Origin: a virus
Virus record (IMG/VR): IMGVR_UViG_3300046011_008672
Coordinates: 1 to 43,879 of that record
Length of the DNA: 43,879 nucleotides
Strand: one strand, 5' to 3'
The notes beneath the pieces were generated by a model. That model was not told the origin of the DNA. It did no database searches and saw nothing but the letters and a program-made list of their open reading frames with translations. The position numbers and the translations under genes were made by a program. Shown here piece by piece: positions 55-43,759 of the stretch. How positions within the stretch are numbered: the stretch's first letter is position 1; the number at the start of each line of letters is the position of its first letter.

Positions 55-465
55 ATGCCAGAAATGACAGGCGGTTTTGACATAGAGTCGGGTGGTTATG
101 CAATTGGATGGCTGCATGAGGTATGTGATGCAAAATCATCAGCAGCCCGAGTATTGCGCCAGTTATATCCTGGCGGTGCTGCTTGTGCCAGTTGTGGCCA
201 ACCGATTCAGGGACGGCGTGCGCTTGAGACCTTCTGGCGTGGCGATCGCACCTGGTGCTCTTCTTGCGAGACCAAGTTTTCCCCCCGTGCCGGTACCATA
301 CTTGCTGACGCCCACATGACTTATGCTCAGTTTGAAATTTTACTGCTTACCATGGGACTAGGTTGTGATCAGCGCACTATTGCAATCATGACCGGTCTCC
401 ACTGTGACACCGTAAAGGTATGGTTCAGCAAAATCAAGTTCTGGGAGGGACAAGGTACGCTATGA
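55..465 (+). CDS. Zinc-ribbon / helix-turn-helix phage protein
   Basis: A 136-residue protein. Two CxxC pairs (CASC near residue 44 and CSSC near residue 68) form a probable zinc ribbon, followed by a helical C-terminal half with an HTH-like segment around residues 100-130. This resembles the N-terminal DNA-binding part of IS1/IS1595-type transposases, but no catalytic domain follows. It is more likely a phage DNA-binding regulator, which is an inference. GGAG lies 8 nt before the ATG. The stop overlaps the next start (ATGA), so it begins a tightly packed early operon. Confidence 0.6.
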   Translation: MPEMTGGFDIESGGYAIGWLHEVCDAKSSAARVLRQLYPGGAACASCGQPIQGRRALETFWRGDRTWCSSCETKFSPRAGTILADAHMTYAQFEILLLTMGLGCDQRTIAIMTGLHCDTVKVWFSKIKFWEGQGTL

Positions 466-788
466 GCCTCTTTGACGGCATACCGCTGGATTATGAAGAG
501 GCTCCACGTCCTGCAGCGCTTGTTTCACGTCCTGCAGAGCTTCAGTACCTGCTTACCGTGCGGCGTGCCAGCAATGGTCAAGAGATCCTATTGTGCAACA
601 TCATCCCACCACCACCAGCTGCCATTGCCGAAGCTGCCCGGCGTGGCCTTGCCCTGTTTGTCTTTAACGAGATTGATGCCATACGCAAGGCTGCTGCCGA
701 TGATCCCCGTGCCGTTGAGCTTATCATAGAAACCCGCCGTGTCATGGGCTACGGCGGCCCGATAGAATATAGCAAGGTGGCCCCATGA
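462..788 (+). CDS. Hypothetical early phage protein
   Basis: A 108-residue protein of unrecognised family. The ATG at 462 overlaps the upstream stop and is preceded by GGGAGGGA at 443-450, so I prefer it to the in-frame ATG at 420, which lies inside the upstream gene. The protein has a proline-rich centre and a helical C-terminal half. Its stop overlaps the primase start, so it is probably translated together with the replication genes. No function is assigned. Confidence 0.6.
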   Translation: MSLFDGIPLDYEEAPRPAALVSRPAELQYLLTVRRASNGQEILLCNIIPPPPAAIAEAARRGLALFVFNEIDAIRKAAADDPRAVELIIETRRVMGYGGPIEYSKVAP

Positions 789-3184
789 GTTACGGATATT
801 CAAACTACGATGATGTTATAGGGCAACTGCGCGACCACGGCCTGATGGTAGAAACACTTGCCATTGATACCCCGCGCGTCCAGCGCTGCACCACGCAAGA
901 CAACCAGCGTGAGAAACGGGGCTGGTACTGGCTTAACACCATCACCATTGATGCAGATCCGTACATAGTCGGAGCCTTTGGCATCTACCAGGGTAACGAC
1001 AACGGTAAGCAAAAGGTCGTCTTGTCCAAACAGCAATCAGAACGCCTCACACCAGAACAGCGTAAAGCCTTAAAAGCCCAGCAGATGGAAAGCCAGAAAA
1101 GGGCAGAAGCAGAGCGCAAGCGCCAGGCAGACAAAGCAGCTGACAAAGCCAAAGCGGGCTGGCAAAAGTGCGCCACTGAAGGGGAGAGTTCTTACCTTAC
1201 CCGTAAACAAGTACAGGCCCACGGCGTAAGATTTGGCAAAGGCGGAACGCTGGTTGTGCCTCTCACCGATGAAAGCGAAAGAATCAGAGGACTTCAGCTG
1301 ATCATGCCCAAAGATCACCCACGGGCGATCAAGATCGGAAGAGACAAAGACTTCTGGCCCTACGGCATAGCCAGTGGCGGCACCTGGCACTTAATCGCCG
1401 GACACCCCCGCACCATACTGCTGCTGGCAGAAGGTTACGCCACCGCTGCAACCCTGCACGAAGCCACCGGCTACCCGGTAGCGGTCGTCTGGTCAGCTAA
1501 CAACATCATGGCCGCAGGCCAGGCCCTTGCCAAAAAGTACAAGCGTGCGCGGATACTGATCTGCGCTGATGACGACTGGCTGCAGAAATGCACCGCCTGT
1601 AAAGAATACACGCAAGTAACCGGTGGGGATTGTGTCCACTGCGGACAGCCTCACCGCCAGAAAAACGCTGGTGTATCCTGCTCGGAAGCAGCTGCAATAA
1701 CTGTCAACGGCAGCTGGATAGCGCCGAAATTCAGCCAACAGCTCCCCACTGACAAAAAAGGTCCCACTGACTTCAATGACCTGCACTGCCTTGAAGGCCT
1801 GCACCTGGTAACTGATCAGATCATCGGCAAGCTATCAGCCCTAGGCTGGCTGAAAGAGCCGCTGCGCGGCGATACAATCACAGGGAGCAGGGAAAATCGT
1901 CAAGCTCTTCAATCAATGCTTACTATTGATGAGGGGTTAGAGCGGTTCAGCCTGATCTATGGCGGCAAAGGCACCATGTTTGACCACCACGAACATATCC
2001 TAGTACCCAAAGCTGACGTACTTGACATCCTTCCGGAACACGGCTGGCGTGATATGCGCCCCCATAAAAAGGTTGCAAGACTGGATGAAGTAGGTTTTGA
2101 CCCGTCCGGCACAGATCCACGCATTATCTGCAACCTGTACGGTGGCTGGCCCACCAAACCAAAACAGGGCGACTGCTCCAAACTCCTCCAATTGCTGCAA
2201 TACCTCTGCAGCAACGAACAAAACCCTAATGAGGTCTATCAGTGGGTGCTGCGCTGGCTGGCCCTGCCAATACAATACCCCGGCGCAAAGATGCGTACCG
2301 CACTGATCCTGCACGGACCGCAAGGCACCGGGAAAAACCTCTTCTTTGAATCCATCATGGCGATTTACGGCGAATACGGACGGATCGTTGACCAGGCTGC
2401 CATTGAAGACAAGTTTAACGACTGGGCCAGCAAGAAACTGTTCATGATCGCCGATGAAGTGGTTGCCAGAACAGAACTGTTCCATGTCAAAAACAAGCTT
2501 AAAGCATTTGTCACCGGCGAATGGATCAGGATCAACCCCAAAAACGTTGCTGCTCACGATGAGCGCAACCACGTCAACATCGTATTTCTATCCAACGAAT
2601 CAGTACCGCTGGTACTGGATCATGATGACCGGCGCTACATGGTCATGCATACCCCAGAAAAGCTTGAGGCTGATTTCTACCAACAGGTAAGGGATGAACT
2701 TGCTTCAGGCGGCATAGCCGCTCTGCACGACCACCTCTTACAGGTAAATATGGAAGGCTTTGACGTTCACAGTAAGCCACCTGCCACCAGGGCAAAACAG
2801 CAACTGATAGAGGCCAGTCTAGACAGCGTAGGCAGCTTTGTTAGGGATTGGTATCAGGGTGAAATACCAAAGGCACCGTTCTGCCCTTGTTCATCAGATC
2901 ACCTGTATCAGGTTTACCGAAGATATTGCGACCGGACCGGGGAGCGATTCCCGCGCAAGCAAAACCTGTTTAAGGGCGATATCAATATGATCCCTGGCTG
3001 GAAGGTGGGCACAGCCAACACCACAGATCCTATTACCGGCCTGCACAAAAGTCGGAAAATGGTTCAGCAGCCTGACCATATGCTGGCACCTGAATACCAG
3101 AGAGGGAACAAAACGGCTGGTTGTTGGCTCCATGAATGCTGTCAGACTTTTGCTTTAGAAGGTGAATTTCCACTTAACAGCTAA
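785..3184 (+). CDS. Toprim primase fused to D5/DUF5906-type helicase
   Basis: A 799-residue replication protein. The N-terminal half carries a Toprim domain with the acidic motif LLLAEGYATA and a later ILICADDD, interrupted after the DDD by a CxxC...CxxC zinc finger at about residues 270-290. The C-terminal half is a superfamily 3-like ATPase with Walker A GPQGTGKN and Walker B LFMIADEV. The architecture fits phage and satellite primase-helicases of the P4 alpha / DUF5906 type, which prime and unwind DNA at an origin. No DNA polymerase gene is present, so host polymerase is presumably recruited. The iteron-like repeats lie immediately downstream. Confidence 0.9.
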   Translation: MSYGYSNYDDVIGQLRDHGLMVETLAIDTPRVQRCTTQDNQREKRGWYWLNTITIDADPYIVGAFGIYQGNDNGKQKVVLSKQQSERLTPEQRKALKAQQMESQKRAEAERKRQADKAADKAKAGWQKCATEGESSYLTRKQVQAHGVRFGKGGTLVVPLTDESERIRGLQLIMPKDHPRAIKIGRDKDFWPYGIASGGTWHLIAGHPRTILLLAEGYATAATLHEATGYPVAVVWSANNIMAAGQALAKKYKRARILICADDDWLQKCTACKEYTQVTGGDCVHCGQPHRQKNAGVSCSEAAAITVNGSWIAPKFSQQLPTDKKGPTDFNDLHCLEGLHLVTDQIIGKLSALGWLKEPLRGDTITGSRENRQALQSMLTIDEGLERFSLIYGGKGTMFDHHEHILVPKADVLDILPEHGWRDMRPHKKVARLDEVGFDPSGTDPRIICNLYGGWPTKPKQGDCSKLLQLLQYLCSNEQNPNEVYQWVLRWLALPIQYPGAKMRTALILHGPQGTGKNLFFESIMAIYGEYGRIVDQAAIEDKFNDWASKKLFMIADEVVARTELFHVKNKLKAFVTGEWIRINPKNVAAHDERNHVNIVFLSNESVPLVLDHDDRRYMVMHTPEKLEADFYQQVRDELASGGIAALHDHLLQVNMEGFDVHSKPPATRAKQQLIEASLDSVGSFVRDWYQGEIPKAPFCPCSSDHLYQVYRRYCDRTGERFPRKQNLFKGDINMIPGWKVGTANTTDPITGLHKSRKMVQQPDHMLAPEYQRGNKTAGCWLHECCQTFALEGEFPLNS

Positions 3185-8411: not shown

Positions 8412-8421
8412 TCATAACGAT

Positions 8422-9942: not shown

Positions 9943-10601
9943 TGTCAACCACCCACGCCACAGACCTGCAGGCCATCCTTGACGCTGCTATTGCCACCGC
10001 CAAGGCTAACCCCACTGCTGCCAACATCAGCACAGTGGAAAAGGCCCGTAAAGCACTGGATGACTACAGCAATCAGGGTGGTGCTGCTGGCGAAAAATTC
10101 AAGACTCAGGCAGCGGCTCTGCTCTATCTGCAGCGCACCTACAAAATCGAGAAAAGCAAACTCTCTGCAGATGTCCAGTCTGGCAAAGTACCCCGCAAAG
10201 ATGGCACCTTCTCTGCCAAGGATCTGGACTACTACGCCAACGCCGTACGGCTGGATCCTAAAACCAGTGAACCACAACAAAGCAGTGATGGCCTGTCAGA
10301 CGACATCAAGCGCGAGACCGCCCGTAAACTCAGAATAAACAACGAAGAACGTGAAGGACTGCTGATAAACCGGCTGGAAGAAGAGGCAAGGGACGCGAAG
10401 CTCTGGTCAGCTGTTAAATCAGATATTGAAAACCACGCCCCTGTCATTGTGCATGAACTAATAAACCGGCTGCTGCCCATTATCGAAGACGATGAACTGC
10501 GTGCCAGGGTGTTGTCACTAACCCATGAACTGCGGCTGGTATATGAGGATGCCATTGCAGATATCTTTGACCGTTACGCAAAGATAGAGGGCGAAGAGTG
10601 A
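9942..10601 (+). CDS. Probable terminase small subunit
   Basis: A 219-residue protein immediately upstream of, and overlapping, the large terminase gene. The centre (KDLDYYANAVRLDPK) and the following charged helical region (KRETARKLRINNEEREGLLINRLEEEARD) recall the coiled-coil half of Nu1-like small subunits, which recognise the cos or pac site and recruit the large subunit. Family assignment rests mainly on position and this helical pattern. Confidence 0.65.
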   Translation: MSTTHATDLQAILDAAIATAKANPTAANISTVEKARKALDDYSNQGGAAGEKFKTQAAALLYLQRTYKIEKSKLSADVQSGKVPRKDGTFSAKDLDYYANAVRLDPKTSEPQQSSDGLSDDIKRETARKLRINNEEREGLLINRLEEEARDAKLWSAVKSDIENHAPVIVHELINRLLPIIEDDELRARVLSLTHELRLVYEDAIADIFDRYAKIEGEE

Positions 10602-12475
10602 GCATAGCAACCCTGCCCATACCTTCGGCGCCAGCGCCCAGGGCAGCAGAACGCAAGGTCTTTGCCAAGCGTAAGCGTTTGCCAGGGCCCCAGTGGTTTG
10701 AGCGCAATATCAACGTACCGGTCGGCAGCCGTCAAGGCCTCTACCGCAACCAGAACAACCCTGCCATGTGGGGCGTGCTGGATTGGGCCACCCGCAGCCA
10801 TGTTCGTACAGTGGTACTGGCCAAAGGCATCCAGATCGGAGGCACCCTTGCCTTTTACGGCCTGCTGCTGCGCGAAGGTGAATACACCAGCGACAATGCC
10901 TTAATAGTTGTTGCTGATGAACGCACCCTTAAAAAACTGATCAAAAAGCGGCTGCATAAGATGATAGACAGCAGCCCGTCCCTGTCAGCTATTAAATCAG
11001 CAAACCCTGATGATACCACCATGTATAGCGTTACCCTGGGTAACGGCTTCACCATTGAAGGCGGCTGGGCATCATCAGAAGTATCAGTATCGTCTGAATC
11101 CTACCGGGTAGTTATTCTGGATGAGATCAGTAAATACAAAACCCGTGGCAACATTGAGGATGCAAAAAGCCGCACCACCGTCTTTCCGGACACACACAAG
11201 ATTTGGATACTCTCCAGCCCCGGAATAGACACCGATGATCCGGAAAACCGTGATCCCCTGATGGTAGAGGCTGAAGCATGTGACGTCATGCTTGAATTCC
11301 ACGCCAAATGCCCTGATTGCGGCAAAGAACAGGTCATGACCTTTGACCGGTTCGGCTGGCCCGGACAAGTTAACCTTGAAGGACAGACAGAGGCAGACCC
11401 CAAGGCAATCCGCCGCAACCGCTCTGCCTGGTACCAGTGTGAACACTGCAACAGCCGTTGGAACGACTACAAGCGGGATAAAGCCATACTGTCAGCCATG
11501 AAAACCGGCTGGCAGCCAACCGATGGCTGTGACATCGAGCGCCCCCAGTCAGTCTACTTCCACTTTCCGGCCTGGCTGTCTCCCTATGTCAGCCTGTCAG
11601 AAGTAGCGGCCAGCTGGCTGGAAGCCCAGGGGGATGAAGAAAAACTGCGCAAGTGGCACAACCGCTTTGCCGGGGTAAGCCACAGATCAGAAAAGAAAGC
11701 TCTGCCCCACTCAACCATTATGAGGCTCAAGGATGATCGACCTGAAGGATTGGTGCCTTCCGTGCCCATTGCTGCCATCACCTGTATTGCTGACATGCAG
11801 AAGCGCGGTTTTTGGTACAAGGTCACTGCTTGGGGTTATGGTCTCCAGCAGGAAAGCTGGCTACTGAAAGCCGGTTTTATTGATTCATTTGACGCCCTTA
11901 AACAGATCATGTTTGAAAGCCAATACCAGGATATATCCGGCAACAACTACAACGTAACCCTGCGCGGTATGGATTCCGGCGGTGGCGAAGGCGAAGAACA
12001 CCAGGATCTGTCCCGTACTGCCGAGGCATACCTGTTTGCAGCTGCAAACCCTGGGGTATTGCTCTTTAAAGGTCGCCGCCGTCTTTCCCGCAGCTTCAAC
12101 GTAACCGATATAGACCGACTGCCGGGCACTAACAAGCCGCTGCCGGGATCGGCCAAGCTCTACACCCTCAACACCACTTTCTTTAAAGACAAGCTAGCTG
12201 CCAAACTGCTGGTATCCTCTGACGATCCGGGAGCCTATCACCTGCATAAAGACACTGATGAAGACTTTGCAAAGCAGATGTGCTCAGAAACCAAGAACGA
12301 ACAAGGCGTGTGGGTATGTCCAAAGGGCAAAGACAACCACTACTTCGACTGTTCAAGCATGGAAATGGCTTTGATAGAGATCTCCCAAGTAAAATTCTGG
12401 CCAGAGCCTGGCCAGATTCCGGCAAATCAGCCCAGGAAGACACAACAACACAGAAACGATAACAGGAGGTGGTAA
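10598..12475 (+). CDS. Terminase large subunit, GpA family
   Basis: A 625-residue protein with the lambda gpA-like organisation. An N-terminal ATPase has a degenerate P-loop region near LAKGIQIGGTLAFYG, a VIVADE segment and a Walker B in YRVVILDEISKYK. A zinc-binding insert (CPDCG...CEHCNSRW) lies at about residues 240-290. The C-terminal nuclease has GMDSGGGEGEEHQD and DNHYFDCSSMEMAL. It packages DNA into the prohead and cuts at packaging sites, working with the portal. The stop lies just before the next ribosome binding site, AGGAGGT. Confidence 0.92.
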   Translation: MSIATLPIPSAPAPRAAERKVFAKRKRLPGPQWFERNINVPVGSRQGLYRNQNNPAMWGVLDWATRSHVRTVVLAKGIQIGGTLAFYGLLLREGEYTSDNALIVVADERTLKKLIKKRLHKMIDSSPSLSAIKSANPDDTTMYSVTLGNGFTIEGGWASSEVSVSSESYRVVILDEISKYKTRGNIEDAKSRTTVFPDTHKIWILSSPGIDTDDPENRDPLMVEAEACDVMLEFHAKCPDCGKEQVMTFDRFGWPGQVNLEGQTEADPKAIRRNRSAWYQCEHCNSRWNDYKRDKAILSAMKTGWQPTDGCDIERPQSVYFHFPAWLSPYVSLSEVAASWLEAQGDEEKLRKWHNRFAGVSHRSEKKALPHSTIMRLKDDRPEGLVPSVPIAAITCIADMQKRGFWYKVTAWGYGLQQESWLLKAGFIDSFDALKQIMFESQYQDISGNNYNVTLRGMDSGGGEGEEHQDLSRTAEAYLFAAANPGVLLFKGRRRLSRSFNVTDIDRLPGTNKPLPGSAKLYTLNTTFFKDKLAAKLLVSSDDPGAYHLHKDTDEDFAKQMCSETKNEQGVWVCPKGKDNHYFDCSSMEMALIEISQVKFWPEPGQIPANQPRKTQQHRNDNRRW

Positions 12476-12477
12476 AC

Positions 12478-12678: not shown

Positions 12679-12692
12679 ATCTGGGGCACGAG

Positions 12693-12939: not shown

Positions 12940-12941
12940 AA

Positions 12942-16685: not shown

Positions 16686-16701
16686 TAGCACTCACCCCTG
16701 A

Positions 16702-16726: not shown

Positions 16727-16753
16727 AACTAAAACAACTAAGGAGAAAATCCA

Positions 16754-17594: not shown

Positions 17595-17820
17595 TGTCGG
17601 CTGGAAAGTCGCTGGCTGGTCGTTCACTGCTGCGATAACCATGGGCACCATGCTCTATAAGGGAGTATGGAAGCGGATTAACCAACTGGCTGAAGAACAG
17701 GACGAAACCCGCACTGATGTAGACAGGCTGATAGGTGCCTGTGGCGTAAACCACCCCAAGCAAACGCCCTGGGCAGGTTCAGAACGCAGAAAATCAAAAG
17801 AGGATACAGACGATGAATAA
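17563..17820 (+). CDS. Second membrane protein of the lysis cassette
   Basis: An 85-residue protein from a GTG at 17563 with AGGAGG at 17551-17556, clearly better than the upstream in-frame ATG at 17473 that lies inside the previous gene. One hydrophobic segment (VAGWSFTAAITMGTMLYKGV) is followed by a charged coiled-coil-like tail. It overlaps both neighbours. With the preceding gene it could form a holin/antiholin or two-component holin, which is an inference. Confidence 0.55.
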   Translation: MEELTKLMPPDVGWKVAGWSFTAAITMGTMLYKGVWKRINQLAEEQDETRTDVDRLIGACGVNHPKQTPWAGSERRKSKEDTDDE

Positions 17821-18286: not shown

Positions 18287-18432
18287 GTGTTGGAAAATTC
18301 TGTAAAAAATGCAGCCGGTTCACTGCCGCTAAAAACTGGTGCGACCGACACGGCAAGTACGTTACCGGCTGGACTGATATGTGTGATGAAGAAAAAGCAG
18401 AGCGGGCAGAAAGAATCAAAAATGCTGGCTAA
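18283..18432 (+). CDS. Small Cys-rich protein
   Basis: A 49-residue frame whose ATG overlaps the lysozyme stop. It contains CKKC near residue 7, then C and H further on, and a third C at DMCDEE, which may form a zinc site. The C-terminal third is a highly charged helix. No known family is recognised. It is kept because of its start/stop overlaps with both neighbours. Confidence 0.5.
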   Translation: MSVGKFCKKCSRFTAAKNWCDRHGKYVTGWTDMCDEEKAERAERIKNAG

Positions 18433-18505
18433 TGTCTGCCAGAACTGCGGGGCACCTCTTTGTTGAGGCGAAGTCTGTGACCGGTGCGGTCACTACAACG
18501 GGTGA
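18422..18505 (+). pseudogene. Mini zinc-ribbon frame interrupted by an in-frame TGA
   Basis: A 28-codon frame from the ATG at 18422. Before an in-frame TGA at 18464-18466 it encodes CQNCGAPLC. After it the frame continues GEVCDRCGHYNG to a second TGA at 18503. Together the two parts make a complete CxxC...CxxCG zinc ribbon, so the stop splits a recognisable domain. A 17-nt hairpin with a GGTGC loop begins 10 nt after the first TGA. A nonsense mutation is the simplest explanation; readthrough or selenocysteine insertion is a less likely one. Confidence 0.4.
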
Positions 18506-18508
18506 ATC

Positions 18509-18883
18509 ATGGAAGCAGCTCTTATTATCATAGACACCTTTATTGCCACCAAGCCAGTCCGCTGGCTGCTGTTGGTGCTTACCACCACCCTATTGGTGGT
18601 GACCGGGGTTAGCCTGGTACGTCAAAAAGCATTATCACTGCAGCTTTCTGCCGCAAAAGGTGACGTTGCTGTTTATGCCGCCTCACTTGGCGCACAAAAC
18701 GCTGCCATAGTAAAGCAAGGCGAAGCCATGCAGCACATGCAAAAACAGTCTGAAAACGCCCGCAATGAAGCAGCCAGAATCAGGCAGGCATGGCAACAAC
18801 GTGAAAAGCAGTTAAACGAACTGAAACTGGTGGGTGATTGCCCGGACATGGTGCAACAAGTCCTTGCCGAGGTACGCAAATGA
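18509..18883 (+). CDS. Inner-membrane spanin (Rz-like)
   Basis: A 124-residue protein with one N-terminal transmembrane helix (about residues 18-38) and then a long alanine- and glutamine-rich coiled coil (residues 45-110) ending near a CPDMV segment. This is the architecture of Rz i-spanins. It spans the periplasm and pairs with the overlapping outer-membrane lipoprotein to fuse the membranes at the end of lysis. Confidence 0.8.
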   Translation: MEAALIIIDTFIATKPVRWLLLVLTTTLLVVTGVSLVRQKALSLQLSAAKGDVAVYAASLGAQNAAIVKQGEAMQHMQKQSENARNEAARIRQAWQQREKQLNELKLVGDCPDMVQQVLAEVRK

Positions 18884-19128
18884 ACTATACAGCGCTGATC
18901 ATAGTAGCCCTGCTTATGTCAGGCTGTGCCTGCCAGCCGGAAATAGTCTACGTTCCTGTGCCAACCTGTGCTGAACCACCGGCAATGACTATGCCAGATC
19001 TTGCTGTTGATCGCTTGCCGCGCCAGCCGGAAACAGCAGAAGGATTAAAAGCCCTGGCTGTTGATCACCTGAAACTTAAAGCGACACTTGAACAATGTAT
19101 CATTAACCTAGAGGCATACCGTAAATGA
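18880..19128 (+). CDS. Outer-membrane spanin lipoprotein (Rz1-like)
   Basis: An 82-residue protein starting at an ATG that overlaps the i-spanin stop. A short hydrophobic signal ends in the lipobox LMSGC at about residues 11-15, followed by a proline-containing periplasmic segment (VYVPVPTCAEPPAMTMPD) and a helix. The downstream overlap with the tail terminator gene shows that the lysis cassette is embedded in the structural operon. Confidence 0.8.
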   Translation: MNYTALIIVALLMSGCACQPEIVYVPVPTCAEPPAMTMPDLAVDRLPRQPETAEGLKALAVDHLKLKATLEQCIINLEAYRK

Positions 19129-19541
19129 GCGCGCATCGTCCCGCCATACTTGAGGCATTAAAAGCACTGCTAGTAACCGGATTACCAGACTTGTCAGGCC
19201 GGGTATATCTGCCATGGGAGCCACTGCCAGAAACCGGCACGCAGCCCCTGGTCCAGTTTGATGTGGATGACAGCCAGATTGATGATTCAGAAACAATAGG
19301 CAGCTGGGTACAGACCATGCCGGTACGGATCGGCTATATCCGGTACGGAAAGTTTGATTACGCTGCCACCTGGCAGCAACTTAACACCATCACCGGCCTG
19401 ATCCGCAACGCCAGCATAAGCGGTATACAGCGGATAGATATAACCGGAGCAGCAGACAACATAACCGAGGCAGGTAATAAGATACTCTGGCCGCATCTGG
19501 CTGTAGATGTTGTCTACCTAACTGCAGCAGGCGAACTTTAA
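19125..19541 (+). CDS. Tail terminator (gpU-like)
   Basis: A 138-residue protein. The form (an N-terminal helix AILEALKALLVTGLPDLSGRVY, then strands with LVQFDVDDSQI and VRIGYIRYG) and its place before the tail tube gene match the tail-terminator/gpU class. That class caps the growing tail tube and joins it to the head. It overlaps the o-spanin stop. Confidence 0.65.
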   Translation: MSAHRPAILEALKALLVTGLPDLSGRVYLPWEPLPETGTQPLVQFDVDDSQIDDSETIGSWVQTMPVRIGYIRYGKFDYAATWQQLNTITGLIRNASISGIQRIDITGAADNITEAGNKILWPHLAVDVVYLTAAGEL

Positions 19542-19560
19542 ACAAAAGGAGGGCTAAATA

Positions 19561-20523
19561 ATGGCCCAAGCACAAGGAAGCAAAGCATATTTGGCCCTGC
19601 AAAAAGAAACCACATTCGGGGTTGATCCTGGCGTACCTGCCCTAATCAAGATCCCGTTTTCATCTGAATCTATCGGCAGGACTATCGGGCTTGAAACCAA
19701 TGACCACATCACCGGCAACCGCAACAACAGTGCCCCGGTACGAGGCAACACTGACGTAAACGGCAGCATCGGCTTTAACCTGGGGGCCTACCCCGGAGAA
19801 CTGCTGCTTGGCGCTTTGGGTTCTGTCAACACCACTGGGGCCGGTCCATACGTTCATACACTTAAAGTCGGAACAAGCTTGCCCAGCTTTACGGTAGAAA
19901 AAGGCTTTTCAGATATCAGCCAGTTTTTCAAGTACAACGGCTGCAAGGTCAACAAATTCAGCCTTACCTCTACCCCTTCAGGTTTTCAAAAAGCATCCAT
20001 TGATATCATGGGTGCCAAAGAAACCGCCAGCGGCACCAGCTTTGACGCAATTGCTACTGATCTGGGAGACACACCCTTTGATGGCTTTCTGATCAGCAGT
20101 GTGCTTGAAGGCGGTGGCGCTATTACCGGGATAACCGAAATCAGCCTGATGATTGAAAACGATCTTGATGGTGACACCTTTACCCTGGGAAGCCAAGGTA
20201 CCCGTGGCAGCATCAACGAAGGCAAGGCAAAAGTGTCAGGCACCATCAAGGGATTTTTTGAAAACCTTACCCTCTACAACAAGGCAGTAAACCAGACTGA
20301 ATCAAGTCTGCTGGTTACTTACCAGCGCGGAACTGGTGCAGGTTCTGCCGGTAACGAGTTTTTGAGCTTTGAAGTGCCAGAACTGGTCTACAGCGTAAAG
20401 ACCCCGGCTGTATCAGGCCCCAAAGGTATTTATTACGAACTGGAGTACCAGGGCTACTACGGTGATGATGCTGATGCCAGCGCACTGGTGGTCACCCTTA
20501 AAAATACTCAGGTAACACTGTAA
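19561..20523 (+). CDS. Major tail tube protein
   Basis: A 320-residue protein, mostly beta, with the tail-tube opening SKAYLALQKETTFG, a GSIGFNLGAYPGELLLGALG segment and a C-terminal YYELEYQGYYGDDADASALVVTLKN. This pattern is typical of lambda gpV-like or Phage_tube_2 proteins, which stack as hexameric rings to form the tail tube. AAAGGAGG lies upstream of the ATG. Confidence 0.88.
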   Translation: MAQAQGSKAYLALQKETTFGVDPGVPALIKIPFSSESIGRTIGLETNDHITGNRNNSAPVRGNTDVNGSIGFNLGAYPGELLLGALGSVNTTGAGPYVHTLKVGTSLPSFTVEKGFSDISQFFKYNGCKVNKFSLTSTPSGFQKASIDIMGAKETASGTSFDAIATDLGDTPFDGFLISSVLEGGGAITGITEISLMIENDLDGDTFTLGSQGTRGSINEGKAKVSGTIKGFFENLTLYNKAVNQTESSLLVTYQRGTGAGSAGNEFLSFEVPELVYSVKTPAVSGPKGIYYELEYQGYYGDDADASALVVTLKNTQVTL

Positions 20524-20537
20524 AAGGAAGGATAGCC

Positions 20538-20888
20538 ATGTACCACTATGAAATAAACGGCAAAACTTTTACCCAAAAGAAACTGGTGCTTGGCCAGATC
20601 GGCGCTTTGGCGCAGCTGCTGGTCGGTATCCGTATGATGTCAATTGATCCCCTGGGGCTTATTGCAGCCCTGGGGGAATCCCTGCCGCAAGCCCTTGCCA
20701 TTGTGCTGGTGCCTGAAGGCGTCCATCCGGCAGACAAGGATTTGTTGGCTATGGGGCGTGATCTGTACGAAGCAGAACCGGAAACCGCCCTGCAGGTGGT
20801 GGCTGATTTTTTCGACTGCAACCCGCTGCCTTCACTTTTGGGGAAGATAGCGGGGCTGGTGGAAAAGTTCAATCAGGTGACTGGGTAG
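20538..20888 (+). CDS. Tail assembly chaperone G
   Basis: A 116-residue acidic, helical protein between the tail tube and tape measure genes, the fixed position of tail assembly chaperones. AAGGAAGG precedes the ATG. A second frame without its own good start continues in the -1 frame past its stop, the standard G/GT arrangement in which a minority of ribosomes shift to make an extended protein. Confidence 0.8.
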   Translation: MYHYEINGKTFTQKKLVLGQIGALAQLLVGIRMMSIDPLGLIAALGESLPQALAIVLVPEGVHPADKDLLAMGRDLYEAEPETALQVVADFFDCNPLPSLLGKIAGLVEKFNQVTG

Positions 20889-21154
20889 AGCAACTGGCCT
20901 GCGTTCTGGCTGATGGAGATATCACCAAACGCAGGCAGATCATCTGGGAAACCACCCCGGATGATTGCAAACCGTACTTAGAGGCCAGAAACCGACAAAT
21001 GTTGTTTCGTGAGGCCGTCATAGCGTTTTTGGGTGCAGGCAATACCAGCGCCTTAACTGATGAGCAAAAAGCATACTGTGACGCCTGCAAAAAAGCCGGA
21101 TTTAACGATTGCGAAAACTGCGACCCCGCAGAGATAGGGAAAATAGATGGCTGA
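20861..21154 (+). CDS. Tail assembly chaperone T extension, made by -1 frameshift
   Basis: An open frame in -1 relative to G from before the G stop up to TGA at 21152-21154, overlapping the tape measure start by 8 bp. It encodes about 95 residues including DWVEQLACVLADGDITKRR and a Cys-rich end (CDACKKAGFNDCENCD). GGAAAAG at 20861-20867, read G GAA AAG in the G frame, is the likely slip site. The GT fusion recruits tail tube subunits to the tape measure. Confidence 0.75.
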   Translation, partial: GKVQSGDWVEQLACVLADGDITKRRQIIWETTPDDCKPYLEARNRQMLFREAVIAFLGAGNTSALTDEQKAYCDACKKAGFNDCENCDPAEIGKIDG

Positions 21155-23531
21155 CCAGAAAATGCAAATAGTCATCACCGCACTGGATGAAACCCAGCGG
21201 GCCTTTGCAAATCTTAAAGGGGCGCTTAACCAGGCCCAGGGGCAATTCAGAGATCTGAACACGCAGGCATCCAGTTCTCAAAAGTCCGTTAATTCGCTGG
21301 CCGGATCGTTTGCGTTATTACAAGCGGCACTGCCTGTTGCGGTCATCGCTTCATTTACAAGATCGGTTGTTGATGCTGGCTTGGCTTTTGACAGGGTACA
21401 GTCTGTGCTTAAGGTTTCAACTGGCACAGCAGAAGCCGCAGCTAGAGAACTACAGTTTATTCGCAACGAGGCCAACCGGCTTGGACTTGATGCTGTAGTA
21501 ACGGCTGATTCGTATTCAAAGTTTCTCACCGCAATCAAAGGCACCGCAGTTGAGGGGGAACCAGGTCGTAAGGTGTTTATTGGTATCTCTGAGGCAATGT
21601 CAGCACTTAAGAAAAGTTCTGATGAAACCAGCAGAGTTTTTGCCCAGATCCAACAGTCATTCGCAAAAGGCAAACTTGAGCTTGAGGATCTGAAGATAAT
21701 TGCCGAGGCTGGCGTGCCTATTTTTGGGATGCTGGCTGAGGCGATGGGTAAAACAAAGCCAGAGATTATGAAAATGATATCTGACGGTAAGCTGATGGCT
21801 GACGAGGTGTGGCCAAAAGTTGCTGACCAAATGCACAAAACATTTGGCGTAGCCGCAGTTGAGTCTGCCAATAGCGCCCAAGGGGCAATAAACAAACTTA
21901 AAAACGAGTACAACACTGTTCTTGAGATGGGCGCAAAAGAGTTCATGCCAGGCTTTACCAATGGGCTGATAGCCATTAAATCTGCCATTTATCCGGTTAT
22001 TGCAGAAATAACCCGCCTTGCCATGCTGGTGGATAAAGCAGGTGGTACGCTTACCACTTTTGGCATGATCGCGTCAAAAGCAGCAGAGTTGCTGGTGCGT
22101 TTCGCTACTGTTGGTCAGTTTGGCGATTCTTTTAAGAACATGGCGGATAAATTCAGCCAGTGGAACAAGATGTATGCAGAGAAATACACTGAAGGAGATA
22201 GACGCCTTACGGATCTGGCAAACAAATCTCTTGGCCTGGGCGGAGTCGATACAAATAGAACAAATGACGAACTAGCTACTGACGCAAAAAGAAATGCCCA
22301 GGTAAAGGCCGCTGAAGAGGCTGCCCGTAAACGTGCTGAAGCTGCAAAGAATGCCAGCAAGGTTAAGGCTGAAGCCGATGCCTGGACCAAGTCTGGCAAA
22401 AAATGGGCAGATCATTATTATAAAGAAGAGCAATCTGCTAGCGACTCTCAAGTAAATTTCAGTATCAAATCACAAAGTGGAACCTCTCAAAAAATGGCAC
22501 AGCTCGAAAAGGAGAAACAAGGATTTATTGATAATTGGGCTATGCGAGCAACCACAGAAGAAGAGTACCAAAACCGGATAGACCAGATTAACAAGGTACA
22601 TTCTGAATCCAGATTAAAAGTGGCCACCGACCATGCAAAAAATATTAAAAAAGAAGCTGCAGCTGCATCAGAATCTACACTGACCCTGCAGTCTGCAAAA
22701 ATAGCAGAGCAGGAGGCAGCCGGTACCATAACCGCAACCGCCGCCATGCAGCAGCAGGTCATGGTAATGCAGCAAAAAAGCCAGCTGATGGCAGACCAGC
22801 TTCACAGCATGCCTAAAGATACCGTCGGAGAAGTGGCAGCCTATAACAGCCAAGCCGAGGCATTAAGCAGGGTAAACACAGAGCTTAACAGCATGAACAA
22901 AACCCTGCGCCTGCGTGAAGGATGGGAAGGCTTAAAGCAGGGCCTGCAGGAGTATGCTGATATGGCCTCAAATATTGGCCAGCAGATTAGTGATGCCGTT
23001 AAGGGTGCTTTTCAAGGGCTTGAGGATGCCATTGTCAACTTTGTTAAAACCGGCAAGCTCAACTTTAAAGATCTGGCTGATAGCATCATTACGGACTTGA
23101 TCCGTATAGCGGTGCGGTCTGCCATTACCAAGCCGCTGGCTGAAGCCGCTGGCAGTCTGTTTTCTGGCTTTTTCGCCAAGGGCGGTGCCTTCGACGGCGG
23201 GGTACAAAAATTCGCAACCGGTGGCATTGTTATGAGCCCCACCCTGTTTGGCATGGCCGGTGGTGCTGGCCTGATGGGTGAGGCTGGTCCTGAAGCTATC
23301 ATGCCGCTGGCCCGCACCAGTTCCGGTCATTTGGGAGTTCGCACTGCAGGCGGTGGACAGCAGGCTATGAGTGTGCAGGTAAACGTCATCAACCAGAGCA
23401 GCCAGAACGTCAGCGCAAAATCCGGCCCCATGCAGTTTGATGGCAAGTCATTTGTTATTAACACCATCCTGCAGGATGTGCAGAATAATGGACCGCTGCG
23501 CGGCCTGATGGCTGGCGGAGGTGCCTACTAA
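21147..23531 (+). CDS. Tape measure protein (gpH-like)
   Basis: A 794-residue protein that sets tail length. The N-terminal tape measure domain runs to about residue 220 (AFDRVQSVLKVSTG, LEDLKIIAEAGVPIFGMLAEAMGK). It is followed by hydrophobic helices around 270-310 and a long Ala/Lys/Glu coiled coil (380-600). The typical C-terminus has FATGGIVMSPTLFGMAGG and GEAGPEAIMPLAR. It is probably cleaved or ejected during infection. Confidence 0.92.
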   Translation: MADQKMQIVITALDETQRAFANLKGALNQAQGQFRDLNTQASSSQKSVNSLAGSFALLQAALPVAVIASFTRSVVDAGLAFDRVQSVLKVSTGTAEAAARELQFIRNEANRLGLDAVVTADSYSKFLTAIKGTAVEGEPGRKVFIGISEAMSALKKSSDETSRVFAQIQQSFAKGKLELEDLKIIAEAGVPIFGMLAEAMGKTKPEIMKMISDGKLMADEVWPKVADQMHKTFGVAAVESANSAQGAINKLKNEYNTVLEMGAKEFMPGFTNGLIAIKSAIYPVIAEITRLAMLVDKAGGTLTTFGMIASKAAELLVRFATVGQFGDSFKNMADKFSQWNKMYAEKYTEGDRRLTDLANKSLGLGGVDTNRTNDELATDAKRNAQVKAAEEAARKRAEAAKNASKVKAEADAWTKSGKKWADHYYKEEQSASDSQVNFSIKSQSGTSQKMAQLEKEKQGFIDNWAMRATTEEEYQNRIDQINKVHSESRLKVATDHAKNIKKEAAAASESTLTLQSAKIAEQEAAGTITATAAMQQQVMVMQQKSQLMADQLHSMPKDTVGEVAAYNSQAEALSRVNTELNSMNKTLRLREGWEGLKQGLQEYADMASNIGQQISDAVKGAFQGLEDAIVNFVKTGKLNFKDLADSIITDLIRIAVRSAITKPLAEAAGSLFSGFFAKGGAFDGGVQKFATGGIVMSPTLFGMAGGAGLMGEAGPEAIMPLARTSSGHLGVRTAGGGQQAMSVQVNVINQSSQNVSAKSGPMQFDGKSFVINTILQDVQNNGPLRGLMAGGGAY

Positions 23532-28778: not shown

Positions 28779-30119
28779 ATGAGCCAGTTTGATTTTGGTA
28801 CCATAAACCCTGATTTGCAATCAGGTACGCAGTTAGCCAGCGACATGAACAGCTGGCGTGACGCGCTGCACAGCATGCACCGGGGCAGTAGTAGGCCGTC
28901 ATATATTGTGGCAGGCATGATGTGGATTGATGATACCACCAATCCCTGGCTGATTAAGATGTACAGCGGCACGACTGACACGGTTCTGGCCAGCTTTAAC
29001 ACTACAACCGGGGTGTTTGGCGGTTCTGCCAACGGCCTGGCCACCCTGGGCAGTGACGGTAAAGTACCCTCCGGGCAACTGCCGGATATGACGCCTGACC
29101 CTTACGCCTTCTTTAAAGCCTCCTCCGCCTCAGTAGCCTTCACCAAAACCGCAGCCGCTACCGCCAGCGTCAAGGCCGGAACAAAGATAATGGTAGGCAC
29201 CACCCTTGTTACCTTTGCCATTGCCACCGCAATTATCATGCCCACGCTGACAGGCGGCACAGACTACGCCATTTACGCCTGTGATGATGGAACATGCCGC
29301 GCTGATGCATCGTTTACCAACCCTACCGGATACACCACAGTCAACAGCCGGTTGATAGGCGGTTTCCATTACGGGCTTGTGGCTGCTGGCACTACTGTGG
29401 CGGGTGGATCATTCGCCACCACAGGCAACGGCATGATCTGGACGCAGACCGATGTTGACCGTATTGCAGGTATCAACGAATTTTCGTTATGGGACCTGAA
29501 GTGGCGTCCGCAGTGTGACCCTAAGGGCATGGCCTTGGTTTCTGGTCGTATCTGGGTTGATATTTATTTCTGTGGCACCAACCACACCACCAACGGCACC
29601 AGCAAGGCAGGCACCGACATTGCCAGCGGAACGGTGCTACCTAAAAAGCCGCTTGAATTTGGCGGCAACGGCACCACAACGTATGCCGCGCCTAAATGGT
29701 GGGATTTTGTCGAGATCGTCAACGCCTACAAAAAGCGGTTAATGCGTGAGCAAGAATTTGTTCTGGCAGCCTTTGGCGTAACTGAAAATCAAAGCATAGA
29801 TGCTGTGGCGTCAACTTATCCAACCACCCAGCGCAATGCTGGCTACACCAGCAAATATGGCATAGAGCAAGCCAGCGGTCATCACTGGACATGGGGTGAT
29901 GATACCGGCCAATATGGTGAATCGTGGGCGTATGCAGACGTTAACGGCGGTCGTGGTCAGCTCTATACGACCAACTACACCACAAAAGTAATTCTAGGCG
30001 GCGGTCGTACGAGCGGAGCCTATTCCGGCTCCCGTTGCTCGTCTTGGGTCTACGACCCGTGGAGCGTCGATTGGTACTTTGGCGTTCGGGCCGCCTGTGA
30101 CCACCTGGTTTTGGTTTAG
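28779..30119 (+). CDS. DGR2 target: tail fibre / receptor-binding protein
   Basis: A 446-residue protein directly after gpJ, with GGAGG before the ATG. The N-terminal part (RPSYIVAGMMWIDDTTNPW, then NGLATLGSDGKVPSGQLP) is a fibre-attachment motif common in phage fibres. The C-terminal 150 residues resemble the C-type-lectin-like domain of DGR receptor-binding proteins (HHWTWGDDTGQYGESWAYAD, then RCSSW and YFGVRAACDH). Residues 407-441 are the variable repeat. Changing these residues should alter receptor choice, as for Mtd of Bordetella phage BPP-1. Confidence 0.9.
   Translation: MSQFDFGTINPDLQSGTQLASDMNSWRDALHSMHRGSSRPSYIVAGMMWIDDTTNPWLIKMYSGTTDTVLASFNTTTGVFGGSANGLATLGSDGKVPSGQLPDMTPDPYAFFKASSASVAFTKTAAATASVKAGTKIMVGTTLVTFAIATAIIMPTLTGGTDYAIYACDDGTCRADASFTNPTGYTTVNSRLIGGFHYGLVAAGTTVAGGSFATTGNGMIWTQTDVDRIAGINEFSLWDLKWRPQCDPKGMALVSGRIWVDIYFCGTNHTTNGTSKAGTDIASGTVLPKKPLEFGGNGTTTYAAPKWWDFVEIVNAYKKRLMREQEFVLAAFGVTENQSIDAVASTYPTTQRNAGYTSKYGIEQASGHHWTWGDDTGQYGESWAYADVNGGRGQLYTTNYTTKVILGGGRTSGAYSGSRCSSWVYDPWSVDWYFGVRAACDHLVLV
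29998..30101 (+). repeat. DGR2 variable repeat (VR3)
   Basis: This 104-bp segment at the 3' end of the tail fibre gene aligns without gaps to the template at 30502-30605. There are 12 differences at template adenines and one at a thymine (T to G at 30053). The last 21 bp (30081-30101) are identical and GC-rich, acting as the homing initiation segment. Similarity stops at 30102, just before the gene end. Confidence 0.95.
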
Positions 30120-30134
30120 TCGAGCGAAAGCGAG

Positions 30135-30488
30135 ATGTCTGGCCATGATCCACACAGGGCTTTGTCGATAGTTGAGCGTTATGAAGGTGCGCTCAACTAT
30201 CTGTACCCGATTTTGCTGAATGTCAGCCACAAGCATAGGGTGCTGCGTGACGAAACCCTGCGGGTGATGCTGGCGCAGGTAGGGCTTTTTAACGATGCGG
30301 CAAAAAGTAATCAGGTTTCACGCCTGCATATAGCCGATGCAGGTTTAGCAACAATCAGAGGATTTCTTCGCCTGTTGGCTGATCCATCAAGAAAGCTGTT
30401 GTCGCGCCGCCAGTATGAGGTTGCCAGTGTTCATCTGGCAGAAACAGGCGCGATGTTGGGCGGATGGATCAAGGCGAAGGATAGGTAG
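30135..30488 (+). CDS. avd: DGR2 accessory variability determinant (Avd)
   Basis: A 117-residue helical basic protein between the target and TR2. Helices such as ALSIVERYEGALNYLYPIL, RDETLRVMLAQVGLFNDA and QYEVASVHLAETGAMLGGWI fit the Avd four-helix-bundle family. It shares little obvious sequence with the DGR1 Avd beyond length and helical pattern, so the two DGRs are not recent copies. The stop at 30488 is only 13 bp from TR2. Confidence 0.82.
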   Translation: MSGHDPHRALSIVERYEGALNYLYPILLNVSHKHRVLRDETLRVMLAQVGLFNDAAKSNQVSRLHIADAGLATIRGFLRLLADPSRKLLSRRQYEVASVHLAETGAMLGGWIKAKDR

Positions 30489-30501
30489 AGATGGGGCAAA
30501 A

Positions 30502-30605
30502 GCGGCAATCGTACGAACGGAGCCTATTCCGGCTCCCGTTGCTCGAATTGGAACAACTACCCGTGGAACGTCAATTGGAACATTGGCGTTCGGGCCGCCT
30601 GTGAC
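30502..30605 (+). repeat. DGR2 template repeat (TR2)
   Basis: The non-variable template for VR3, with 8 AAC/AAT codons in the target frame against S, G, V, Y and D codons in VR3. It ends with the 21-bp identical segment 30585-30605. It lies in the 277-bp gap between avd and the RT gene and was presumably transcribed as part of the DGR RNA. The rest of the gap (30606-30765) shows no convincing gene. Confidence 0.95.
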
Positions 30606-30765
30606 GACAGAACAATTTTACCATGCTGCAACAGCTACGGCGAAGGCAGCAGACCTTATATGTGGTCAGCCCGTCTCTGCCTGCTTAGGCAAACACACTA
30701 CACGGTCTGGAGAGCGGCGAGTAGGAAGCATCGAAACCCGCGCCAGCAATAAAGGATTTAACCCA

Positions 30766-31740
30766 ATGGGTAAGCGATATAAAAACCTCTATCACCAGAT
30801 ATGCCACCCTGACACCCTTTGGGCTGCCTATCAAAGGGCCGCTGCCGGTAAGCGCCGCAGCATGGGATATCTGCATTTTAAACAGCAAGAGGCGGCGAAC
30901 ATTGCCAGACTATCAGCCAGCCTGAAAGATGGCAGCTATCAACCAGGAGAGCAACGCACCTTTACTGTGTACGAACCAAAGAAAAGACAAATATCAGCCC
31001 TGCCGTTTTCAGATCGTGTTGTACAGCACGCTCTGGTTGCAGTGATCGAGCCTATATTTGACCGGGCTTTTCTTCCACAAAGCTACGCCTGCAGAGTAAA
31101 CAAAGGCACCCACCGTGGAGCCATTAAAGCGCAGGCCACCATGCGGCGGATGCAACAGCAGGGGCAAGGCTGGTTTCTAAAAACCGACTTCGCAGGCTAC
31201 TTCAAAAATATAAACCTTGAAGTTCTACACAAGGAGATCCGCCGCAAGATCAGCTGCCCGGCAACCCTTGATCTTATCACCAAGTTTCACAGCAACACCG
31301 GAACCGGACTGCCTATTGGTAACCTTACCAGCCAACTGTTTGCCAATGTGTACGGCAACATTCTTGACAAGTATCTGGTGCATGAGCTGGGTCGCAGCAA
31401 CTTTATCCGCTACATGGACGATGCAGTTATCTTTAGCCACAGCAGGCATTACCTTGAAACGCTGCGTTATGGCCTGAAGTGGTTCTGTAAATCGGTGATG
31501 AAGCTGGACTTCAGCCGCTGGATGATTGCGCCTTTTCAGCAGGGCTTGAACTTCCTTGGCTACCGTATCTGGCCAACCCATAAACTACTGCGCCGATCAT
31601 CTGTTGCGCGGGCAAAGAAAACCATCAAACGCCTACAAGGGCAGCCTGACAAACTCTGTAAATTTATAGCCAGCTGGCGCGGTCACGCACAGTGGGCAGA
31701 CAGCCGCAACCTATTACACGCATTGGAGGTGTACGCATGA
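30766..31740 (+). CDS. DGR2 reverse transcriptase
   Basis: A 324-residue DGR reverse transcriptase from the ATG at 30766, which has AAAGGA about 9 nt upstream. Motifs are LYHQICHPDTLWAAYQRA at the N-terminus, SDRVVQHAL, FLKTDFAGYFKNI, GLPIGNLTSQ at 181-190 and catalytic YMDD at 216-219. It differs from the DGR1 enzyme in length and in much of its sequence. The frame is open upstream into the template, but starts there would not be sensible. The stop overlaps the next start. Confidence 0.93.
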   Translation: MGKRYKNLYHQICHPDTLWAAYQRAAAGKRRSMGYLHFKQQEAANIARLSASLKDGSYQPGEQRTFTVYEPKKRQISALPFSDRVVQHALVAVIEPIFDRAFLPQSYACRVNKGTHRGAIKAQATMRRMQQQGQGWFLKTDFAGYFKNINLEVLHKEIRRKISCPATLDLITKFHSNTGTGLPIGNLTSQLFANVYGNILDKYLVHELGRSNFIRYMDDAVIFSHSRHYLETLRYGLKWFCKSVMKLDFSRWMIAPFQQGLNFLGYRIWPTHKLLRRSSVARAKKTIKRLQGQPDKLCKFIASWRGHAQWADSRNLLHALEVYA

Positions 31741-38180: not shown

Positions 38181-38211
38181 AAATTTGTTGCTAAATGTTG
38201 CTATAAAAAGC

Positions 38212-38249
38212 ATAAAGGGTTTGCAGAAAAAAGTCTGCAAACCCTTTAT
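38212..38249. terminator. Bidirectional terminator beside attP
   Basis: A perfect 16-bp stem (left arm 38212-38227, right arm 38234-38249) with a 6-nt A-rich loop. Ends of T on one strand and A on the other mean that it would terminate rightward structural transcription. It also sits just downstream of the leftward tRNA 3' end, like a tRNA terminator carried along with the attachment core. Confidence 0.85.
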
Positions 38250-38252
38250 TTA

Positions 38253-38297
38253 TGGTCGGTGCGAAAGGATTCGAACCTTCGACCCCTAGACCCCCAG
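38253..38297 (-). tRNA. 3' half of tRNA-Pro(GGG), attachment core
   Basis: Read on the minus strand, this is the 3' part of a tRNA-Pro: anticodon loop containing GGG, the 3' anticodon strand, variable loop, T arm with TTCGAAT and the acceptor strand CGCACCG-A-CCA. The 5' half is missing: before the anticodon loop the sequence no longer pairs. A partial tRNA next to a phage integrase is the standard identity segment that restores the host tRNA gene after integration. It is not a functional tRNA by itself. Confidence 0.85.
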
Positions 38298-38327
38298 CTT
38301 TGTGTAACGTGACGCAACTAACTATAA

Positions 38328-39356
38328 TTATTTACTGTTATGAGTAGCAACTTTAGCAACGTCTCTATCTACAAGCTTTGCAGCTCCTCTTCTAGTGTGA
38401 GATGTAACAAGCTTGATGTAGTTACGAGTTTGCTTGATATCTGCATGACCCATCAACTCCTGGATCACTGCCAAATTTTCACCGCCCTCAACCAATGCCG
38501 TTGCAAAGCTGTGGCGGAACAAATGGTTGTAGACCCGCTGGGATACTTCTGCTTTTTCTACTGCGGATTTAAGTTGACGTCGGATGTCTTTGTAAGGAAG
38601 CATGGTTTTAAGATTGGGAAATAGATAGCCGCTTGGCCTAACTTTCTTAGCCCCTTTAATTCTTTCCTGGAGCTCTTTGAGTTCTATTGGGGCCACACGC
38701 CACTTTCCGCCTTTACCCCATACTCTTACATAGCTGCCATCTTTTGCAGCGTCTATGGATTTCAGGTTCATTGCTTCATTGCGTCTCAGTCCGTTGTATT
38801 CCATGAGCTGGACCAATTGCTTAATCGGATACGGAAGTAATGCTACAATCTTATCCATATCATCCATGCTAAGTGGTTCAGGTGGCGGAGGTTCGCAGTC
38901 TTTTTTTCTAAATTTAGTGATAGTTAATGTTGACCCACAGTAATTCAAATATTTAGCTAAGTATGACAGCTCACGGTTGATGGTTCGGCGTCCTATGTTT
39001 TTACCGGTTGACTTTGCTTTTTGCATGAGACGGTGGGCCTTGTATTGCTCAATTATCACTGGGGTGATGTGCCTTATTTTCATTGTATCAAAGAAAGGCT
39101 CTATCTGTTTCCACGCCCACTCAAAGTCACCGTATGTTGACTCCATGACCTCATTTTTGTAGGCAATGCGGAACTCTGGCAGTTTATCTAAAAAACCCGG
39201 GTCAGTGGTATCGGTGAGGCCCCGCAGCTCCCGCTCGTACATCAGAGCGTCATCCCGGCCACCAGGATATGGGATGTATTCCGGCTTGCCTTTGCGCCCG
39301 TGGCTGATCTTGATCATCTGCCAGCCGGGCTTTGTTGGGTGGTTGTAGACGCTCAT
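38328..39356 (-). CDS. int: Tyrosine recombinase integrase
   Basis: A 342-residue phage integrase. It has an N-terminal arm-binding region, a SAM-like core-binding domain (ESTYGDFEWAWKQIEPFF) and a catalytic domain with Arg in NGLRRNEAM, Lys in WGKGGKWR, the HLFRHSFA box, Gly-His in LMGHADIKQT and the nucleophilic Tyr in RNYIKLV. It probably inserts at tRNA-Pro. The start is 8 bp after the lipoprotein stop, so it is translated from an operon with it. Confidence 0.93.
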   Translation of the reverse strand: MSVYNHPTKPGWQMIKISHGRKGKPEYIPYPGGRDDALMYERELRGLTDTTDPGFLDKLPEFRIAYKNEVMESTYGDFEWAWKQIEPFFDTMKIRHITPVIIEQYKAHRLMQKAKSTGKNIGRRTINRELSYLAKYLNYCGSTLTITKFRKKDCEPPPPEPLSMDDMDKIVALLPYPIKQLVQLMEYNGLRRNEAMNLKSIDAAKDGSYVRVWGKGGKWRVAPIELKELQERIKGAKKVRPSGYLFPNLKTMLPYKDIRRQLKSAVEKAEVSQRVYNHLFRHSFATALVEGGENLAVIQELMGHADIKQTRNYIKLVTSHTRRGAAKLVDRDVAKVATHNSK

Positions 39357-40738: not shown

Positions 40739-41107
40739 CTATGCTGCTTTAGTTGTGTCTATTTTTAGATCTTCCGCGTCTGCTTGTTTTTCGAACTGAG
40801 TGAAGCGCCTCACTTGTCTGGCAAGCCCAGGATCGCCTTTGATCATTTCCAGTATGGCTTGTTCATCATCTGATAGTATTTGGTATGATTCAGGATGTTC
40901 GCTAACGAGAGGTATTTCTGATTGTATAAATACTGCAGGGTTGATGCCGTATGCCGCGGCTATTTTGTAAATGGTGCCAACCTGCACATCATAATAGTCG
41001 TACATCATTTTATTGACCAGCGCCTGGCTGATACCGCACTTACGGGCAACAGCGGATTGAGACCCGCATTCTTTAACTTTTTGCCTTATGTAGTCTATGA
41101 CTTTCAT
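40739..41107 (-). CDS. CI-like repressor
   Basis: A 122-residue protein with an N-terminal XRE helix-turn-helix (VKECGSQSAVARKCGISQALVNKMM) and a short C-terminal tail (YQILSDDEQAILEMIKGDPGLARQ) in place of a peptidase domain. It probably keeps the lysogen silent by binding the palindromic operators at 41149-41161 and 41381-41395. There is no LexA-like self-cleavage domain, so induction must work in another way. The ATG is only 7 nt beyond the -10 box, so its mRNA would be almost leaderless. Confidence 0.8.
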   Translation of the reverse strand: MKVIDYIRQKVKECGSQSAVARKCGISQALVNKMMYDYYDVQVGTIYKIAAAYGINPAVFIQSEIPLVSEHPESYQILSDDEQAILEMIKGDPGLARQVRRFTQFEKQADAEDLKIDTTKAA

Positions 41108-43105: not shown

Positions 43106-43759
43106 ATGTCTAGCCCTGGATTTGTATCGATAAAGCTGGAAGGTGTTGACAAGTTATTGAAGAGCCTGGACCCACAGAAGGTACAAGGTGCAGCGAAGGC
43201 TGCAATAGGCCGTACCAAGACATCGGCGAGGTCTGAGGCCAGCAAATTAATTACCAGTGTCTGGAATATAGGCAAGCGCAACCTGGAGACGATGGCAACA
43301 GGCAAGCCACGTATAGAGGTGTCTGGAGGTGTTGGCAATGATCTGTCGGCTACTATTACATTCTGGTCTGGCGGCATCAGTCTTGTGTACTTCGGAGCTA
43401 AAGAGTTCCGTTTGACTGCAGCACGATCAAGGCAGACTGCTAGGCGTGGTGGACAGGCTTACAGCAAGGGCGCTAAGACGTTGGTTGGTATACGAGTGCA
43501 GACGCTGAGAGGTGGGCCTACTGCTATGCTGCGGCAGTTCTTCTCTACTATGAGATCAGGTCATAAGGGTGTATTCAGGCGCGATCCTGCTGGTGGCAAG
43601 ACCAAGGCAGGTAATGCGAGAATCATAGAGAGCAGCGCCGTTGGTATTGCAACTATGGTGAACCAACCACGGGTGTTGCCAAAGCTTAAGCAGCATATCC
43701 TTGACACCTTCCAGAAGCGTTTTACGCATGAGCTCAAGCAGCGAGGGGTGATTGGCTGA
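43106..43759 (+). CDS. Minor tail protein Z-like
   Basis: A 217-residue protein with the features of lambda gpZ (Minor_tail_Z): an N-terminal LEGVDKLLKSLDPQKVQGAAKAAIGRTKTSARSEASKLI, a central beta segment, FFSTMRSGHKGVFRRD and a C-terminal RFTHELKQRG. gpZ helps join tails to heads. In lambda it lies between FII and U. Here that place holds the lysis genes and this gene is next to the early region instead. GGGGGCGG precedes the ATG at 43106. Confidence 0.75.
   Translation: MSSPGFVSIKLEGVDKLLKSLDPQKVQGAAKAAIGRTKTSARSEASKLITSVWNIGKRNLETMATGKPRIEVSGGVGNDLSATITFWSGGISLVYFGAKEFRLTAARSRQTARRGGQAYSKGAKTLVGIRVQTLRGGPTAMLRQFFSTMRSGHKGVFRRDPAGGKTKAGNARIIESSAVGIATMVNQPRVLPKLKQHILDTFQKRFTHELKQRGVIG

Follow-up and report, generated by a model that had tools for sequence, protein, structure and literature searches.

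Bipartite integrases of the lambda type are generally known to act on an attP in which two arms flank the core and carry short direct repeats spaced by about one helical turn. Islands and prophages whose tyrosine integrase targets a tRNA gene, with the crossover in the anticodon loop, constitute Islander class A, and integrase genes that overlap attP are known in other elements (PMC4383910). The window, by which we mean the whole stretch of 43,879 nt analyzed here, is an entire IMG/VR record, classed as linear. An earlier sequence-only reading had placed in it the 3′ half of a tRNA-Pro(GGG) gene near int, flanked by paired repeats, and had taken the locus for an attP. Both parts of this reading were borne out, and the features of the site are as follows:

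38187..38203, plus strand: tail-side arm, two copies of GTTGCTA at 10-bp spacing, 49 and 59 nt from the core
38212..38249, minus strand: Rho-independent terminator 3′ of the tRNA end, a hairpin that separates the tRNA end from the tail-side arm
38253..38297, minus strand: attP core of 45 nt, the same as the 3′ part of the host tRNA-Pro(GGG) from the anticodon loop to CCA
38291..38297, minus strand: CTGGGGG, the 7-nt anticodon loop, at which we infer the crossover (overlap) region to lie
38298..38302, minus strand: CAAAG, the phage half of the core, with AAAG just ahead of the core in five of five related phages
38345..38360, minus strand: int-side arm, two copies of GTTGCTA at 9-bp spacing, 54 and 63 nt from the core
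38328..39356, minus strand: int, tyrosine recombinase integrase of 342 aa (phrog_1, 7e-37; PF00589, 3e-24)

The core occurs in the window as a single exact match on the minus strand, where none would be expected by chance, and all of its letters (45/45) match the host tRNA; in Trichlorobacter thiogenes, whose tRNA-Pro(GGG) is 77 nt long, they correspond to positions 33-77. The 32 nt upstream of the core agree with this tRNA at only 9/32 positions, and no intact tRNA gene was found in the window. The span of 38187-38360 given in the sequence-only reading is correct for the repeats, while the core proper is confined to 38253-38297. The comparison of attB, where the anticodon stem–loop reads CTAGA-CTGGGGG-TCTAG, with attP, which reads CAAAG-CTGGGGG-TCTAG, showed that the identity of the two sites begins exactly at CTGGGGG, and this boundary fits a crossover that is likely located in the anticodon loop.

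A search for host tRNA-Pro genes sharing the 45-bp core, which had been proposed with the earlier reading, covered 84,980 genomes and found the exact core in three of them: Trichlorobacter thiogenes, a Trichlorobacter MAG and a Geobacteraceae MAG. In all three the core sits within an intact tRNA-Pro(GGG) gene, and in other members of the order it differs at several positions. Because the exact core is restricted in this way, the host is likely Trichlorobacter or close kin, with tRNA-Pro(GGG) as the probable attB. No close relative of Int was found in these three genomes, no lysogen of the window phage itself was found, and megablast of window positions 20001-43879 against 50,697 phage records gave no DNA match. 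The exact core is also present at 8617-8661 of a 50.9-kb viral contig (L003), where it lies beside a different integrase, P4-like by inspection, which indicates that unrelated integrases share one attB. In several Geobacter-group loci (L108, L113, L117, L121, L124 and L126) a terminator lies 3′ of tRNA-Pro(GGG), and after it comes a direct repeat with 10-11-bp spacing, which starts about 44-47 nt from the tRNA end and differs in its motif (TAGCAAC, TTAGACA, TTTAACC, TGGGAC, TAGGGCAC); the 3′ flank of tRNA-Pro in L007 is similar by eye. The flanks of the L108–L126 set look like attL of other elements, and tRNA-Pro(GGG) may be an integration hot spot.

Relatives of the integrase were sought in 141 genomes of the same order. 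The catalytic set of Int (R191, the K in GKGGK 214-218, H278xxR281, H304 and Y313, assigned by inspection) follows the order R...K...HxxR...H...Y of tyrosine recombinases and lies within the phage integrase domain. A full-length Int that is 68-72% identical to that of the window was found in 3/141 genomes, and a broken copy in a fourth. On the evidence of their junctions, the Int relatives (about 70% identical) in genomes G100 and G112, which belong to the same order as the host, are integrated in tRNA-Pro(GGG). In G112 both junctions are on one contig (C102), with the intact tRNA-Pro(GGG) at 46399-46475 and the displaced core at 85658-85702 beside int, so that the two cores are 39.2 kb apart. 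In G100 the intact tRNA-Pro (C18:22654-22730) has phage DNA on its 3′ side and host MerR/IHF-like sequence, named by inspection, on its 5′ side, the displaced core (C14:12042-12086) follows int, and the two cores are identical over 45 nt. A near-empty site, reached through the tRNA flank, was found in G084, where tRNA-Pro is directly followed by sequence that is 86.7% identical over 166 nt to the outer flank of the G100 attR. The gene beyond this attR was also tried as a route to the host locus and was rejected, as it belongs to a paralogous family and no tRNA-Pro lay beside the two loci checked. The search for attL/attR junctions in lysogens thus succeeded for the relatives and gave none for the window phage. 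A pattern scan for more displaced cores returned one remnant (G104:C92) and one chance match (G234). The former (L131, core at 1505) is an attP-like module that has arm sites to either side and no adjoining int reading frame, possibly a decayed phage remnant.

The relatives also provided the evidence on the arms. The GTTGCTA copies are located at 38187-38193 and 38197-38203 and, as reverse complements, at 38345-38351 and 38354-38360. The sequence-only reading had given GTTGCT at 38187 and 38197 and AGCAAC at 38346 and 38355; these positions are exact, while the full conserved unit is the 7-mer GTTGCTA rather than the hexamer. The int-side pair lies within the 3′ coding end of int (codons 332-337), and hence attP overlaps int. 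The arm distances of 63/54 nt on the int side and 49/59 nt on the tail side are the same in the window, G100 and G112, and in the two prophages the copies are divided so that the tail-side pair is at attL and the int-side pair at attR. Contig C21 of a further genome, G091, and the viral contig G002 (apparently one and the same phage) have the same arm geometry, with all four copies carrying CCGCTA. This joint switch strongly supports the prediction that the repeats are arm-type sites, and chance would not explain a change of all four copies together. The view of the repeats as integrase arm sites is hence backed both by the equal distances in the relatives and by their covariation. An exact IHF consensus (WATCAANNNNTTR) was not found within 200 nt of attP, where a degenerate site is possible. 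IHF is not required by all bipartite integrases.

The N-terminal part of Int, through which binding to the arms would be expected, was modeled as a β-β-β-α fold resembling arm-binding domains, with three strands and a helix in residues 1-45 and a pLDDT of 77-86 for residues 1-40. The mean for the whole model was poor (61.8), and a fold search was dropped for this reason; lambda Int was not among the sequence matches of Int to solved structures. The turn between β2 and β3 reads SHGRKGKP in the Int proteins of the TTGCTA type versus FHGKE-KP in the CCGCTA type. We therefore put forward, at a little under even odds, that in this Int family the arm geometry stays fixed while the four arm copies switch sequence together (TTGCTA to CCGCTA) and the β2-β3 turn changes to match, a link that is drawn from two arm types and from a model fairly confident for about the first 40 residues only. 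If true, this would be a natural series from which to read the evolution of arm-site specificity and the way in which phages with a common attB avoid cross-excision.

Two rival explanations of the site were weighed against these data. The GTTGCTA pairs could be chance repeats, as the single hexamer GTTGCT occurs 45 times in the window, and as the quadruple arrangement, which arose in 3/20,000 shuffles of the 251-nt stretch, is matched by two other window stretches that pass the same loose shuffle test. That test is for this reason weak alone, and the real evidence is the conservation in the relatives: base-exact positions in three phages whose Int proteins are about 70% identical, and the joint change in another lineage, make chance repeats very improbable. 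The half tRNA could likewise be a decayed, phage-carried tRNA gene with no tie to integration, considering that phages can carry tRNA genes and that the window holds no intact one. This explanation is refuted for the relatives, which are integrated at exactly the same segment with equal arm geometry, and for the window it is scarcely credible. The exact core, the integration of relatives in tRNA-Pro(GGG) and the conserved arms together make the assignment of the site as attP of a temperate phage well supported.

The sequence-only reading had also concluded, from the internal position of attP, that the genome is circular or excised, which is overstated. In the linear virion DNA of lambda-like phages attP is internal, and hence its position alone is not proof of a circular or excised molecule. 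Other features of the window are the following:

55..465, plus strand: 136-aa gene, the first after the left end, preceded in relatives by the Neck1-like gene
785..3184, plus strand: DNA primase; in the viral contig L065 it comes after homologues of the window-end genes
10598..12475, plus strand: terminase large subunit, about 10 kb from the window break
40739..41107, minus strand: HTH regulator, candidate lysogeny repressor
43106..43759, plus strand: Neck1/minor-tail-Z-like gene, the last before the right end; next to the 55-465 homologue in G100

The window has no direct end repeats of at least 8 nt, and hence no terminal overlap. In G100, the homologues of 43106-43759 and 55-465 are neighbors in the same orientation, 200 nt apart. 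The viral contig L065 has, in unbroken order, a 42308-like gene, a neck-like gene, a 136-aa gene, a 420-like gene and primase, with a corresponding gap of 198 nt; here the neck-like and 136-aa genes were matched by position, length and inspection, and the other three by tblastn. The genes at the two window ends are thus adjacent in both relatives. If joined, the window ends would leave 174 nt between the genes, about 25 nt less than in the relatives, and a few bases may be missing. In the relative contig G002 attP is also internal, and 80 bp are common to the two ends, though within a tandem repeat. Scans of other viral contigs found neither the joined window ends nor relatives of the 136-aa protein. 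With about 10 kb between it and the terminase genes, the break is off the usual cos position and so is not an obvious packaging end. The Neck1/minor-tail-Z-like gene is situated in the early region before primase, away from the head–tail genes, and this position is kept in G100 and L065. Two observations support the proposal that the genome is circular or terminally joined and that the cut is arbitrary: the order of genes across the ends, as seen in two independent relatives, and the distance of the break from terminase. It is very likely that the record is a nearly complete map of a genome that we infer to be circular.

The sequence picture would be the same for a replicating circle, for DNA from virions and for a tandem prophage. 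That what was sequenced was linear DNA from virions, or a concatemer, with packaging ends elsewhere, is compatible with the attP assignment and is suggested by the lambda-like terminase and portal, since the virion attP of such phages is generally known to be internal, and by the missing end repeats. The window ends lie away from the terminase genes, the relatives continue across them, and we regard this origin as possible, at odds clearly short of even. A contig derived from two tandem prophages with a common att site would have attP as its central junction, and the sequence of such a junction is that of attP. Both host DNA and a duplicated gene set are absent from the 43.9 kb, and the window ends adjoin in relatives; these observations make tandem prophages the less likely source, and an improbable one.

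Taken together, we estimate at about 90% the probability that the locus is the attP of a temperate Trichlorobacter/Geobacteraceae phage whose Int acts via the GTTGCTA arms and the anticodon loop, and that the window represents almost all of a circular map. According to this proposal, the N-terminal domain of Int would bind the GTTGCTA arm pairs and Int would recombine CTGGGGG of attP with the same segment of the host tRNA-Pro(GGG). The phage core would supply a replacement tRNA 3′ half together with the terminator, equivalents of which are present in G100, G112 and G091. The tRNA gene would be restored at the tail-side junction, where the phage terminator would serve it, and the displaced host 3′ half would be left beside int. 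The cut in the circular map would fall after the Neck1-like gene and before the 136-aa gene.

The phage also carries two diversity-generating retroelement (DGR) cassettes:

6449-9534: DGR 1, with reverse transcriptase (RT) at 8149-9534 (the ORF start is too far upstream) and template repeat at 8312-8418
7078-7177 and 7639-7745: variable repeats of DGR 1, in two paralogous target genes
28779-31740: DGR 2, with RT at 30415-31740, template repeat at 30502-30608 and variable repeat at 29998-30104

The mismatches of the DGR 1 variable repeats fall at template adenines in 12/12 and 14/16 cases, and those of the DGR 2 variable repeat, which is at the C-terminus of a tail protein, in 12/14. The same phage from a second metagenomic sample (L053) differs from window positions 6992-22472 at 14 of 15,481 positions. 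All 14 are within 7085-7146, in the first variable repeat of DGR 1, and all 14 at template adenines, while the second variable repeat is unchanged. This confinement provides strong evidence for DGR 1 being active in nature. The DGR pair and the pattern in L053 are more striking than attP itself, which is an ordinary docking site and textbook phage biology apart from what it adds on the host, the map and the arm series. Through it, an uncultured metagenomic phage can be assigned a likely host and a temperate lifestyle, along with an exact site of integration and a circular map that is almost complete. The related attP sites, whose arm repeats covary, could serve as a set for studying arm-site recognition by integrases.

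Compared with its closest kin, the G100 and G112 prophages and the G091/G002 contig, the window shares an Int that is 68-72% identical, the same tRNA target and the same arm geometry, while the other genes are largely different or distant and the arm copies of G091/G002 are CCGCTA versus GTTGCTA in the window. The site matches Islander class A in that the tRNA 3′ part within attP begins at the anticodon loop, the gene is restored and the fragment is displaced to the other end. Nothing essential differs from that class, the particulars being the target, tRNA-Pro(GGG) of Geobacterales, and the terminator beside the core. The site is like the lambda type in its two predicted flanking arms with direct repeats about one helical turn apart and, as far as the model indicates, in the arm-binding-like N-terminal domain of Int, while it differs from that type in having two copies per arm, an int-side pair within the int coding sequence and no exact IHF consensus.
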